The position numbers and the translations under genes were made by a program. From contig OY754468.1 in NCBI GenBank assembly GCA_963575645.1, positions 13,268,001 through 13,332,000 of the forward strand: 64,000 nt of DNA, in the 5' to 3' direction. Below the pieces are notes generated by a model that was given only the letters and a program-made list of their open reading frames with translations, did no database searches and was not told where the DNA came from. Shown here piece after piece: positions 1-10,303 of this stretch (position 1 is the first letter of the stretch; each line of letters opens with the position of its first letter). Source of the stretch: Xanthostigma xanthostigma (Eukaryota; Arthropoda; Insecta; Raphidioptera; Raphidiidae).

Positions 1-433
1 ATGAAAAAATCTGCAACTTTTGTACAGGTTACAATATAACATAACCTCAAAACATCCGAAAAAAATGCAAAAAACCCTATTTTTTAGTATTTTTTACTTT
101 TTATTTTTAAATTTTCATTTTTGAGCATGTTTTTGAATTGTGAGTATAAATTTTCATTATTTTAGTCTAAAGTATATGTAACAATAAAAAAATAAGCACC
201 GACCGAACCGTGTACCATGATTTTTCACGTACATGGTTCAGTCTATGCTTATCTTTTTGTTTTGATATATACTTTTAGCTAAAATAATGAAAATTTATAA
301 TCACAACTCAAAAACATGCTCAAAAATGAAAATTTAAAAATAAAACGTAAAAAATAGGGTTTTTTGCATTTTTCTCGGAAGTTTTGAGGTTATGTTATAT
401 AGTAACCTGTACAAAAGTTGCAGATTTTTTCAT
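1..433. repeat. Near-perfect palindrome (foldback), arms about 205 bp
   Basis: The first bases (ATGAAAAAATCTGCAAC) are the exact reverse complement of those ending at 433, and pairing continues inward with few mismatches to a short centre near 200-240. The element may continue beyond the window edge. No coding potential is evident. A diverged copy follows at about 680-1,110. Confidence 0.85.
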
Positions 434-679
434 GATCTACAACTATTGTTTTGGATATATTTTTATTCTATGACAAAAAAAAAAGATTATTTTGCTTACT
501 TATGTGAAGCATTATTATTCTAATTTAATGTTTATAACATTACTGCGAAAAAATTAGGTTTCCGGTCAAACAATGAAAGACAGTTTCTTTTGTATATTTG
601 TCCATACAATTGTATGGTGTAATCCGTTTTTCAATTTTCTTAAAAATTTAAACAAATTATCAACAATTACTGAAAAATT

Positions 680-1110
680 CATAGTTACAAAAGTAATTTT
701 TTAGTTTTTCCAATTTTTGAGCGTGTTGTTAAATAGGCACTATTAACTTTTATTATTGTATCAGAAAGTACATCTAAAAACACAAAAAATAAGCATAGGA
801 AGAACTCTGTACGATGAATTTTCACCGTAGAATTTTCATTTGAAAAAAAATGGTTTTTGGCTGAAAGAACTGAATATCACAAAAACTTTTCGATTTTTTT
901 ATGTAAAAATATTTGTGCTTATTTAAGACATAAAGAGGCATGCTTTCACAAAATTTTATCAAAATTGAGTTATTTATGCGAAAATGAAAAATAAAAAACA
1001 AAAGAATCGTTTTCTTCGCACATTTTGCATTTTTCACGGACATTTTGAGATCACAGTAAAAAGTGACCTCTATGAAAGTTGTAGATCTTTTTATGTTCTA
1101 CAACTGTCCT
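680..1110. repeat. Diverged copy of the 1-433 foldback family
   Basis: The order of motifs matches the adjacent palindrome: a TTTTTGAGC-like arm, a segment with AAAAATAAGCAT, a central GTACGATGAATTTTCAC, then GAAAATGAAAAATAAAA and GTTGTAGATC. Identity is lower, so this is an older copy lying next to a younger one. Short reading frames here are low-complexity and not credible genes. Confidence 0.55.
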
Positions 1111-1320
1111 GTAGAACATTTTTTGATAGAACATTAAGTTTCGCTGGAAAACGCTATAAGATATTTTGCCCCCCTTTATGACCCCCCCGAATTAACCCTT
1201 TACTGCCCCTGGCCGGGCATTTTTATTTTTTACGTTCATTATAAGCCCCTTTACCGTTTGCAATGATAAAAGTTCTGTCTACAATTAATACACATTCTAA
1301 ATCTAATTTGCCTGCACTAT

Positions 1321-2003
1321 GGTACCTGTTCAAATAGTCAAAAAAAACTCAAAAATATTTTAAAATGCATTTTTCTCGAAAACTATATCCATTTTACAGA
1401 AAAATTTATTGAACAAAAAATGTAGAGGGCATCGTTATCTACAATTAATGTCATTGGTGTTATGTTGTACAACAAAAAATGTGAACAGTAGGTGGCGCTT
1501 AAGTGCCAAAAAAAGTGTTTTTCCACTTTTTTGCCCTGAAATTTTCATTTTTTAGTTACGATTCAAATGGAAAAATTGTTCCATTTTATTTTATAAACAA
1601 CTTTTATTTCAACATTTTTTTCATACAACTTACTTTTCATACAACTTACTTTCACTTCAACAAGCTGCAGCTCTGAAACGGTAAGTTGTATGAAAAAAAT
1701 GTTGAAATAAAAGTTGTTTATAAAATAAAATGGAACAATTTTTCCATTTGAATCGTAACTGAAAAATGAAAATTTCAGGGCAAAAAAGTGGAAAAACACT
1801 TTTTTTGGCACTTAAGCGCCACCTACTGTTCACATTTTTTGTTGTACAACATAGCACCAATGACATTAATTGTAGATAACGATGCCCTCTACATTTTTTG
1901 TTCAATAAATTTTTCTGTAAAATGGATAGTTTTCGAGAAAAATGTATTTCAAAATATTTTTGAGTTTTTTTTGACTATTTAAACAGGTATTTGAACAGGT
2001 ACC
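1321..2003. repeat. Foldback element with GGTACCTGTTCAAATAG termini
   Basis: Two arms of about 310 bp are nearly perfect reverse complements. The left end begins GGTACCTGTTCAAATAG; the right end finishes TTGAACAGGTACC with a small duplication of the terminal motif. The turn lies near 1,640-1,680 and contains TCATACAACTTACTTT repeated. Short frames spanning the arms are shadows of the palindrome. Confidence 0.85.
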
Positions 2004-2289
2004 AGGTGGCCATTGCCAGGTAACCTTTTTTTTCATCATTCTCTAACGACTCACCAAGTTTCACCTTTTTGGGTGGTTTTGTTGAGGTTTTTGCCAGATT
2101 GACTGTACTAATTGCACACTTTCAAGGTTTACACACATATAAAGAAAAGAAAGATTTGTAATAATAAAAAAGCTACTCTAAAAAGAAAAAAACCGTGTCA
2201 AATAAGAAAATCTAATAAAATAAATCAATATGCCCACGTTCCTACAAAAAGAAGTGAAATCCCATCAAAAATATTCTGTAAAAAACTAG

Positions 2290-2621
2290 CCAAGTCTCGA
2301 TGGAGCTGCTTGTTTATCTCTAAAAAGTAATGAAATCTAGACAAAGTCGTGCCAAGTCTAAGGTTCCTTACTGGGATTTCTTTAAAATTATAGTTAATGT
2401 TGTGTGACTTGGCCGGTTCTTCTACCGGTTCTGGCGACAGATTGGTGCAATGGTGTCATGGAGCACCTGGTTTCGTACCCTTGTGTACCCTTCAACGGCG
2501 AAGTCACACAACATTAACTATAATTTTAAAGAAATCCCAGTAAGGAACCTTAGACTTGGCACGACTTTGTCTAGATTTCATTACTTTTTAGAGATAAACA
2601 AGCAGCTCCATCGAGACTTGG
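2290..2621. repeat. Short foldback, arms about 120 bp
   Basis: CCAAGTCTCGATGGAGCTGC at the left end is mirrored by GCAGCTCCATCGAGACTTGG at the right, and pairing continues through a GTTAATGTTGTGTGACTT motif. The roughly 95-bp loop is GC-richer than its surroundings and contains CCGGTTCTTCTACCGG. No transposase is visible; this is a MITE-like element of unknown superfamily. Confidence 0.8.
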
Positions 2622-2819
2622 ACAGTTTTCACAACTTTCACTTCACAAAATGAGATTTTTCTACGCATATTGATAAAAATTTTGCTTGAAAAGCGATCTT
2701 TTCTCTGTAGATCAAGCATTTGTTTTTGTGTTCTGCAGGACAGTGAGTACAACGTCATTAAACTGTTCTTGTTTATATAAACACTGTAAAAATGCGATCA
2801 CATTCTAAGGTTATTATCA

Positions 2820-3378
2820 AATAAATTTTTTTGAAAATGCTTTCTGCATAGTTAGAGGACGGTGATAGAAATGGTCAAGGAGCACTTGGTGGCAGAAACT
2901 CTTTTTTTTGTTGGGTGAGAGGTGACACATGTAGACGCCTGGCGGGGATAACTGATCGATTAATAATTGATAAGTTATCGACCACATTATAACAATCGCA
3001 CTTTCTGTTTCCACTGGGTTAAATACATACAAATTTACCGTTATATTTCCATCTTGTAACCCTATTGCGCAGCTGTGGATGAAAGTAAAAATACTAATAT
3101 CGCTATTAAAAAATAGGGGTTAGAGGTAGAACGGTGAAAATTTAGGGTTATAAGTATTTTTTTATGGAAGATCATAAAAAATAAAAAAAAATTTGTCCAA
3201 AAAATAAAAAAAAATTCTAGAAGGCCACCCTTATCACCTAGAGGTATAAAAAATAGCATACGACCTATTCTCAGACCTACCAAGTATACACAAAACATTT
3301 CATAAAAATTGGTCAAGCCGTTTCGGAGGAGTTCGATAACAAACACTGTGACACGAGATTTTTATATATATAAATAGA
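2820..3378 (-). mobile_element. Non-autonomous Helitron-like element, 5' end on minus strand
   Basis: Read on the minus strand it begins with TATATATATAAAAATCTCG, then GTGTCACAG and a stretch containing CCTCCGAAACGGCTTGACC, the same 5' sequence as the plus-strand copy at 10,851. The interior GGGGATAACTGATCGAT also matches that copy. A short 5' TC/CTATATA start without terminal inverted repeats is typical of insect Helitrons; assignment is by this resemblance and no Rep/helicase is present. Confidence 0.5.
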
Positions 3379-3654
3379 GCTATTTAAAGTTTGCCCTAAT
3401 TTTCCGCTTGTTCTCTACCTGGGGTATCTCAACAACTTCGAAATTTTCGAACTTTTAGTTTTTTTGCGACTCACTTACTAACCGAGCATTATTTTTTTAA
3501 ATTTTAAATATTTTACATTTACTGATAAAATCTTAGCAGTACTGAAATGATGTAGGTCTGGCGGGTTTGGGATCTTGATATATAGGTTTGACAAGTCGAG
3601 TTCGATATTATTATATTGATGTTTACAAAATTATGGTTCGGCATTTTTTTAGGG

Positions 3655-6110: not shown

Positions 6111-6798
6111 TCTAACCTAACTTTGTACAAAAAATTCAAAAGTTAGTCTATTAAGTAAAATACTGAAATAATTAATTAATATTACAAAAAATATTTATTT
6201 ATGCCTCTATAATACAGTCATTTGGTAGTTTTACCTGGAAAGTTTTCCGGGAGTTTTGAAAATTATTGATTTTATAGATTTTGAGGTGCTCTTTCCGAAT
6301 TTCGACTTTGCCACCTCGTATTTTTGTCGCTCGCGCCGCCATATTGGAAAAATGGCGCCTAAAAGCAGTTTTTGGACAATATCTCCTTTCCGACTCATTT
6401 TACGATAAAAACAGTTATATACAAAATGAAACTAGAGACAATTTCCTACAATTCATGTATCTACCTTTTTTTCATAAAGTCAATAGTTTTGGCGTACGAG
6501 GGCCGCAAAGTGTACTCCAACGCGCATTTTGGCCAAAAAACTCATTTCCACACCACCTTGAGGTAGAGTAAGTGGCGCGTTTTTTTTAATCTGGTATCCC
6601 CAATAGGCCTAATCCACATGCAATTTAATGTGCTAAAATTTTGCGTATTCTCCTTCGCTTTATTGTTCTCGATGGACCAGGTGTTGCAAATTCATCGTCT
6701 GTAGTACCAATCGAAACGTCACAGACCGGTATTTCATCTACATCATAGTGTGTACTGTGGTGTGAAAGAATAAAATTAAATGCTGTGTATATATTTTA

Positions 6799-6854
6799 CA
6801 CCCGTTGGGCGAAGGGAATCCGGTTCCTATTCCGGAACCCGGCAGCGGAACCGT
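6799..6854 (+). rRNA. 28S rRNA fragment (sense) inside the foldback arm
   Basis: CACCCGTTGGGCGAAGGGAA is followed by TCCGGTTCCTATTCCGGAAC and a CCGGCAGCGG motif, a conserved eukaryotic large-subunit segment upstream of the R2 region. It is mirrored by the end of the antisense segment at 7,193-7,246, so it forms the innermost part of the palindrome stem. Confidence 0.8.
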
Positions 6855-6887
6855 AATTAAAACAAAGCATTGCGATAGCCCTAGCGG

Positions 6888-6941
6888 GTGTTGACGCAAT
6901 GTGATTTCTGCCCAGTGCTCTGAATGCCAACGTGAAAAAAA

Positions 6942-6985
<44 letters not shown>

Positions 6986-6988
6986 GAG
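6888..6988 (+). rRNA. 28S rRNA fragment ending at the R2 target site
   Basis: GTGTTGACGCAATGTGATTT, CTGCCCAGTGCTCTGAATG, GCGCGGGTAAACGGCGGGAG and TAACTATGACTCTCTT are the universally conserved 28S sequence immediately 5' of the R2 retrotransposon cleavage site. Homology stops at CTCTCTTGAG, within a few bases of where R2 cuts. Small changes (for example GTGAAAAAAATC) indicate a non-functional copy. Confidence 0.9.
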
Positions 6989-7246
6989 ATTTTCAAGGTC
7001 CGAGGGGAAGATTCGGACACCGCCGCAACTGCGGTGCTCTTCGCGTTCCAAACCATATCTCCCTGCTAGAGGATTCCATGGAACTCGAACGCTCATGCAG
7101 AAAAGAAAACTCTTCGCGGATCTCCCGACGGCGTCTCCAGGTCATTTTGGGTTGCCCTGACGAACTCTCTTGCGAGCGCCCGACTTATAAACGGTTCCGC
7201 TGTCGGGTTCCGGAATAGGAACCGGATTCCCTTCGCCCAACGGGTG
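6988..7246 (-). rRNA. 28S rRNA fragment (antisense), upstream domain
   Basis: On the minus strand this reads as a continuous arthropod 28S segment: CACCCGTTGGGCGAAGGGAA, then AATGACCTGGAGACGCCGTC, CTTTTCTGCATGAGCGTTCG, CCTCTAGCAGGGAG, GAGCACCGCAGTTGCGG and CCTCGGACCTTGAAAATC. It joins head to head with the sense R2-flank fragment at GAG/GATTTTC. The two pieces are normally several hundred bases apart in the same orientation. Confidence 0.85.
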
Positions 7247-7904
7247 TAAAATATATGCACACAGCATTTAATTTTATTCTTTCACACCACAGTACACACT
7301 ATGATGTAGATGAAATACCGGTCTGTGACGTTTCGATTGGTACTACAGACGATGAATTTGCAACACCTGGTCCATCGAAAACAATAAAGCGAAGGAGAAT
7401 ATGCAAAATTTTAGCACATTAAATTGCATGTGGATTAGGCCTATTAGAGATACCACATTAAAAAAAACGCGCCACTTACTCTATTTCAAGGTGGTGTGGA
7501 AATGAGTTTTTTGGCCAAAATGCGCGTTGTAGTACACTTTGCGGCGCTCGTACGCCAAAACTATTGACTTTAAGAAAAAAAGGTAGATACATGAATTGTA
7601 GGCAATTGTCTCTAGTTTCATTTTGTATATAACTGTTTTTATCGTAAAATGAGTCGGAAAGGAGATATTGTCAAAAAACTGCTTTTAGGCGCCATTTTTC
7701 CAATATGGCGGCGTAAGCGGCAAAAATACGAGGTGGCAAAGTCAAAACTCGGAAAGAGCACCTCAAAATCTATAAAATTACCAATTTTCAAAACTCCCGG
7801 AAAACTTTCCAGGTAACCACTATATTTGTCACCAAATGACTGTACTATCTATGGCAATAATTTATTGGTATTATCGACTTATAACCTTTTGTAAAAATTT
7901 ATTA

Positions 7905-9425: not shown

Positions 9426-9720
9426 TTTTTAAAAATCAATTTTTTGACGTATGTAAATACTTAAATATTGTAAGTAGGTTTTGGAATTTTATACAAACAA
9501 TGAAACAGTTGTTTTCAAAATATTATGACAGTTAATCTTTAATTACTATCCAAGTGAGACTTAAAATAAATACGTATTTGAAAGAAAGTTAAAAACAATT
9601 ATTATTATAGGTGAGTAATTTTAATAAATAAATATAATAAATAAATTTTTAACCTAAATTTGAAGTGAAAGATGCAATATCATAGATCAAGATGACGGCG
9701 AATCAGTTTTCCAAGTACCA
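9423..9720 (-). mobile_element. Fragment of the CCGAGCTTTGCTCGG element (empty-site copy)
   Basis: The reverse complement matches 57,425-57,560 and both sides of the insertion in the copy at 19,134-20,975, including ATTAAAGATTAACTGTCATA and GATTCGCCGTCATCTTGATC. It is continuous where the 19-kb copy is interrupted by a 1-kb foldback, so it shows the uninterrupted site near 9,600-9,620. Confidence 0.6.
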
Positions 9721-9724
9721 GCAA

Positions 9725-10303
9725 GTGTTTTAAATACCAGTTATCCACGAATACTTTACGCTATTTTTTTTTTCGAGCACGACGGCGCAGCCGGAGTGAA
9801 CCCTCGAAATAGAGCAAGTGTTTTAAAGACCAGTTATCGACGAATACTTTACGCTATTTTTTTTCGAGCACGACGGCGTACCGGAGTGAACCCTCGAAAC
9901 AGAGCAAATGTTTTAAAGATCAGTTATCCACGAATACTTTACGCTATTTTTTTTCGAGCACGACGGCGCAGCCGGAGTGCTCGAAATAGAGCAAGTGTTT
10001 TAAAGACCAGTTATCCACAAATACTTTACGCTACTTTTTTTTTCGAGCACTACGGCGCAGCCGGAGTGCTTGAAATAGAGCAAGTGTTTTAAAGACCAGT
10101 TATCCACGAATACTTTACGCTATTTTTTTTCGAGCACGACGGCGCAGCCGGAGTGCTTGAAATAGAGCAAGTGTTTTAAAGACCAGTTATCCACGAATAC
10201 TTTACGTTATTTTTTTTCGAGCACTACGGTGCAGCCGGAGTGCTCGAAATAGAGCAAGTGTTTTAAAGACCAGTTATCCACGAATACTTTACGCTATTTT
10301 TTT
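9725..10303 (+). repeat. Tandem array, about 88-bp unit, 7 copies
   Basis: The motif GTGTTTTAAAGACCAGTTAT starts at 9,725, 9,818, 9,908, 9,995, 10,084, 10,171 and 10,258 (spacings 93, 90, 87, 89, 87, 87). Each unit holds a CGAGCACGACGGCGCAGCCG motif, so CGAGCAC...GTGCTCG forms a hairpin. The same motif occurs singly at 11,325 near the end of a Helitron-like element, which suggests amplification inside such an element. An open frame across the array is a by-product of the repeat. Confidence 0.9.

Follow-up and report, generated by a model that had tools for sequence, protein, structure and literature searches.

Three 28S rRNA fragments, one of them ending at the R2 insertion site, form the core of a multicopy foldback transposon in Xanthostigma xanthostigma

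A foldback DNA transposon with a core of three 28S rRNA fragments was located at positions 6210–7847 of the window, the 64,000-nucleotide stretch of Xanthostigma xanthostigma contig OY754468.1 that was analysed. The full-length core is found at seven places on five contigs with 97–100% identity, and capture of the 28S sequence followed by transposition is secure. We interpret the element, with a probability of about 0.64, as a non-autonomous multicopy foldback that acquired 28S sequence once, in an event that would have stopped at an R2 cut, and that has since been moved by a transposase acting in trans. The first-pass annotation had proposed that 28S rDNA was captured in a foldback transposon, and this is borne out by LSU rRNA matches on both strands and by the same core at all seven places.

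The ends of the element, TAATACAGTCATTTGG and CCAAATGACTGTACTA, were placed by alignment with the six other copies, by target duplications and by match lengths at unoccupied sites, which moves the boundaries outward from the 6215–7842 first proposed. Identical 4-bp duplications, TCTA, lie immediately outside at 6206–6209 and 7848–7851. The inverted arms at 6231–6797 and 7250–7816 are 567 nt long and 96% complementary; aligned over 658 columns, the arms of the window copy (L001) agree at 94.7% and measure ~0.65 kb each, and these long inverted arms, the mark of a foldback transposon, make up most of the element. Both arms derive from the 3' end of the parent transposon, as determined from matches to rDNA-less copies and from alignment columns diagnostic of left or right termini. 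The left arm (6210–6746, minus strand) runs from parent position 2069 back to roughly 1522 (an estimate), with its outermost ~35 alignment columns of the left type, and seven matches to rDNA-less copies stop exactly at query position 538, which corresponds to window 6746. The right arm (7301–7847, plus strand) includes the right terminus and, at 7303–7410 on the plus strand, a relic of the C-terminal codons of the parent gene, recognised from open reading frames in five relatives (L039, L040, L042, L043 and L045) and by eye in the window copy; the C-terminus of the family reads ..DVDEIPVCDVSIGTTDDEFATPGPSRTIKRRRIR before the stop, with variants. Elsewhere in the window, a 142-codon open stretch at 9664–10092 with an internal repeat (..TSYPRILYAIFFRARRR..) is probably a tandem repeat and not a gene.

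The 28S identity of the core rests on an Rfam scan of 6700–7350 and on 95–97% matches to the genome's own rDNA, since a whole-window Rfam scan with fast filters reported no rRNA and missed both matches. In the scan of 6700–7350, LSU_rRNA_eukarya (gathering score 50, exceeded on both strands) matched the plus strand at 6850–7107 (model 2137–2327, 128.7 bits, E = 1.6e-32) and the minus strand at 6955–7350 (model 1534–1848, 89.1 bits, E = 1.3e-21). Fragment positions are given relative to L061, an rDNA locus on contig 11 with LSU_rRNA_eukarya across model 1–3401 and with an insertion containing endonuclease and reverse transcriptase (RT) domains, which we take to be of R1 type.

Against this reference the core reads sense, a second sense piece after a 0.84-kb skip, then antisense. 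The first piece (6747–6854, plus strand, with GCGGAACCGT at its end) aligns to L061 2499–2633, gives a BLAST match over 6784–6860 at 94.9% and begins in what is presumably a variable D7a-like stretch. The second piece (6855–6988, plus strand, AATTAAAAC...CTCTCTTGAG) corresponds to L061 3477–3610 and ends at the R2 site, L061 2634–3476 being omitted at window 6854/6855. A head-to-head junction at 6988/6989 (TGACTCTCTTGAG followed by ATTTTC), shared by seven places, leads into the third piece (6989–7300, minus strand), which starts 775 bp upstream in 28S, the turn being from L061 3610 to 2835, and runs back to about 2499 with a BLAST match over 6988–7266 at 97.1%. The seven-copy majority equals L061 3477–3610 at 130 of 134 positions and differs from L061 2582–2835 at 2 of 254 columns. 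The joins show short overlaps: transposon and 28S share about 2 bp (AT), and a single base overlaps at the skip (T) and another at the inverted join (G). Because of the skip, the core consists of three 28S pieces and not the two described earlier; similarly, a GA microhomology at the inverted junction gives way to the single G, and a TTAAG reading to TTGAG, which is present in all seven copies. Ribosomal sequence had been assigned to 6799–7246. It is indeed present there, and its extent is greater, probably 6747–7300, of which the BLAST matches reach 6784 and 7266 and the ~35 bases at either edge (6747–6783 and 7267–7300) align weakly to rDNA.

A 41-nt junction pattern, with up to three mismatches allowed, matched the genome seven times (six exactly, once with one mismatch), and its reversed control did not match. 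The 1.1-kb 28S region was found at no fewer than six places in the contig 11 rDNA and in the seven elements, and at no other place among the 13 candidates, all of which were scored; these search counts are lower bounds. Thus, the expectation that the same 28S junction would be found at several sites, with rDNA as transposon cargo, was confirmed. The seven copies share a common architecture with the same breakpoints, and their flanks are unrelated, with common stretches of 39–55 bp at most. No intermediate in which the transposon end is joined to 28S without a palindrome was found in the assembly.

Both ends were located at 16 of 27 loci (7/7 with rDNA and 9/20 without). Directly outside TACTA/TAGTA-type ends, these complete elements carry a target duplication of 3 bp in 15 of 16 cases and of 4 bp in the window copy, a longer right end having been allowed for L041 and L046 when duplications were scored. 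The duplications of the seven rDNA copies are AAT, TTA, CAA, TAT, TTT, TTA and TCTA (six different). When the flanks of L003 and L006 were joined, they matched at least 39 and at least 1 other places, respectively, across the joins (40 scored of 1851 candidates). These matches were shorter than the query by 8 bases in 37/40, by 9 in two and by 2 in one, and a shortfall of 8 is expected if TACTA belongs to the element and 3 bp are duplicated. A 5-bp TACTA duplication is ruled out by these 8-base-short matches together with the 3-bp repeats outside TACTA. The TTAA target of Pokey and piggyBac does not fit the observed duplications.

Six of the seven copies (L002–L007) contain a short palindromic insertion nested within them, with ends TGTCRCCGGGATATTGTC and a TATG duplication, and the seven-copy alignment places its unfilled target, TATG, at 7254–7257 of the window copy, which is without it; the unit therefore most simply moved both before and after this insertion. 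Arms differ between copies at 6–30 of 516–599 sites, and the two arms within one copy at 0–21. Both arms of L006 carry the same 15-bp deletion together with two substitutions, as mirror images, and L007 differs from the six others in having its 28S core inverted with respect to the left and right termini. From these two copies, arms appear to exchange sequence after the birth of an element.

Relatives of roughly 2.07 kb (L039 and L040) have ~330-bp ends and broken frames of one protein, for which a six-frame search returned at least 150 matches (150 scored of 360 candidates, with palindromic copies able to count twice). Among these matches are open frames of 1449–1521 aa, e.g. at C4:19937556 and C5:19375010. 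Palindromes devoid of rDNA were also observed in this family. One of them, L046, measures 1.0 kb and is made of the same end, and five further elements (L051, L052, L053, L054 and L056) lead from the other end as far as parent 1818 and reverse at about 1232, as do L042–L044 over the sequence covered. These five, about 2.25–2.67 kb long, are probably one lineage, the second palindromic one. The loop at the turn is 0.59 kb in these five versus 0.78 kb in the rDNA element, with the same topology; since palindromes without rDNA exist in the family, an R2 break is not required for turning back. An indel of ~10 bp distinguishes the left terminus of the parent from the right one, and one left-type and one right-type terminus were present in each of five palindromic elements tested (L001, L002, L007, L046 and L053). 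Termini are thus mixed though both interiors come from one end, which implies either a switch inside the inverted ends each time or that only such products remain mobile.

AcademX transposons are linked to an XPG nuclease, and the parent protein displays an XPG-like pattern by eye (GEDVDLL..SGCDTTSAL). Its family also shares the 3–4-bp target duplications described for the AcademX lineage of Academ (PMC10045372), a likeness without a profile or fold match. Pfam revealed no XPG-type domain in 3 fragments or 10 family members and no Pfam family in the close members scanned, Pfam XPG_I was placed at six sites across the genome with none among the 150 parent-protein matches scored, and a PDB sequence search with the parent protein gave no match of note. 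A single-sequence fold model of the protein had a pLDDT of 39.8. Viral contigs yielded 14 pattern matches, none of which was confirmed, and a phage collection yielded no match. Given the blank Pfam, PDB and XPG_I searches, the parent family is possibly Academ-like, as an unproven lead.

Uninterrupted 28S in L060 and L061 reads CTCTCTTAAG-GTAGCC. Four insertions in the contig 11 rDNA were called R2 from their site: the last 28S bases before foreign sequence are CTCTCTTAAG in L059 and CTCTCTTAA in both L062 and L063, and the L064 insertion begins after CTATGAC, 8–9 bases upstream of the L059 junction. In three of these four, the 5' junction lies 0–1 base from the sense end of the element, which upholds the earlier placement of this end at the R2 site. 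The L062 insertion contains an open reading frame with an RT domain, and 28S resumes after it at TAGCC, which we take to be the usual R2 3' boundary; L063 is 98.5% like L062 over 5.3 kb. On contig 11, at about 8.87 Mb (L062) and 9.05 Mb (L063), R2-like coding sequence, so named by eye, is succeeded by an rDNA fragment and then by the RT-bearing insertion at the R2 site, an instance of rearranged rDNA inside the array. The element itself is not an R2 retrotransposon: all seven copies are located away from the rDNA array, and transposon arm and 28S together account for 6210–7847. R2 cutting is rigid on the bottom strand and flexible on the top strand (PMC2718515), which makes this genome's own 5' junctions the relevant comparison. 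A random break would land this near the R2 junctions with a chance in the order of 0.001, a rough and post hoc figure based on the roughly 1.9 kb of 28S that follow the capture point, for a coincidence that is a single event spotted after the fact.

That chance speaks against ordinary template switching in a palindrome-prone family, in which the stop at the R2 site would be a coincidence or a weak point of 28S and no R2 cut would be needed. Such switching is consistent with the rDNA-less palindrome L046, with the lineage that turns with a 0.59-kb loop and with overlaps of about 1–2 bp at all three joins, and we regard it as possible, though distinctly less probable than a stop at an R2 cut. 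It was claimed earlier that an R2 break explains the palindrome, and this claim is weakened: R2 may account at most for the turn point of the rDNA element, and the fold-back itself is seen in the family without rDNA. R2 best explains where the rDNA element turned. An R2 cut as trigger is the most tentative step of the proposed history, because the family folds back without R2 and because L064 shows that junctions at the site vary. R2 could also have acted through RNA, its reverse transcriptase priming on the cut top strand and copying 28S rRNA into antisense cDNA. Antisense 28S does follow directly after the join, and the join lies at the top-strand end used by R2 for second-strand priming (PMC2718515), but in both arms 28S gives way to the same transposon sequence, at 6746/6747 and 7300/7301. 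An rRNA copy would carry no transposon sequence, and the common arm-28S joint therefore makes this RNA route very improbable.

Transposition itself is hardly in doubt. All seven rDNA copies (L001–L007) lie forward on their contigs, an arrangement with a chance of 2 in 128 that would suit an assembly artefact or segmental duplication. Against these stand the unrelated flanks, the individual duplications, the matches to unoccupied versions of two sites and the per-copy mutations, and we give such an origin almost no weight; the first-pass annotation had named a unique junction, absent from long reads, as the sign of an artefact, and seven junction copies were found. It had also suggested a Tc1/mariner-type insertion at TA, and TA does adjoin CAGT at both ends. 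This TA belongs to the element ends, however, and the duplications outside it are 3–4 bp long and varied in sequence, not TA, with which the match lengths at unoccupied sites agree, so that a Tc1/mariner foldback is discarded with next to no remaining probability.

The history that we favour, with 28S capture stopped at an R2 cut and followed by transposition, would begin with the miscopying of a ~2-kb transposon with ~330-bp inverted ends and 3–4-bp duplications. We infer that polymerase switching carried a 3'-end strand into 28S with ~2 bp of overlap. Copying or joining down 28S would then have halted at the R2 insertion start (CTCTCTTAAG), most simply because the rDNA unit was cut there. 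The free end would have turned back, through a 1-bp overlap, to a 28S position 775 bp upstream and exited via the same 28S and transposon sequence, generating the palindrome. A switch within the ~330-bp ends would have produced one left-type and one right-type terminus. The unit would subsequently have transposed with the aid of a transposase acting in trans, gained the nested insertion and transposed again, reaching at least seven loci.

The seven copies together document that rDNA left its array as part of a DNA transposon, and their breakpoint coincides with the insertion place of a known rDNA-specific element. In Lepidoptera, the spread of rDNA has been attributed to satellites and not to mobile elements (PMC10257491), which is not contradicted here since the rDNA foldback moves fragments and not units. 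We tentatively propose, at somewhat less than an even chance, that R2 cuts supply broken rDNA ends that are picked up by DNA transposons under faulty repair, R2 and an unrelated cut-and-paste family thereby jointly exporting pieces of ribosomal genes from the nucleolar array. Whether R2 damage seeds rDNA rearrangement elsewhere is a question for a comparison of breakpoints across species. Transcription of the resulting palindrome, should it occur, would yield a hairpin RNA with 28S sequence that could enter small-RNA pathways directed at rRNA or at the transposon. Additionally, a family with repeated palindromes yet one left and one right terminus offers a usable test case for the origin of foldback elements.

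Galileo and Tetris are foldback transposons. The element resembles them and FB4 (PMC8277862) in its long inverted arms and non-autonomous nature, a comparison made by description, and the excerpted descriptions of FB4, Galileo and Tetris contain no mention of rDNA cargo. A 28S-carrying foldback was likewise absent from the titles and abstract beginnings of the open-licence literature, which is weak evidence of novelty. Pokey, a piggyBac transposon of Daphnia (PMC3849761), is similar in being a DNA transposon with rDNA-derived IGS and ITS2 repeats outside rDNA. It differs, in the part of its description considered, by inserting into 28S, by its TTAA targets and by carrying spacer repeats upstream of the transposase gene instead of broken 28S. 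Closer still is Ssk-FB4 of Drosophila (Tan et al. 2021, PMC8277862), a multicopy Pack-TIR with host sequence inside transposon ends and one chimera at several loci with distinct duplications. As excerpted, that report also describes a short overlap at the capture breakpoint, a foldback-type carrier and a proposed template switch followed by transposition. The present element differs from Ssk-FB4 in its palindromic 28S cargo bounded by the R2 site and in its duplications of 3–4 bp versus 9–10 in FB4. With foreign host sequence between terminal inverted repeats and one chimera at several loci, each with its own duplication and with parent sequence elsewhere, the element works like a multicopy Pack-TIR, the nearest published kind, to which rDNA cargo would be a new addition.
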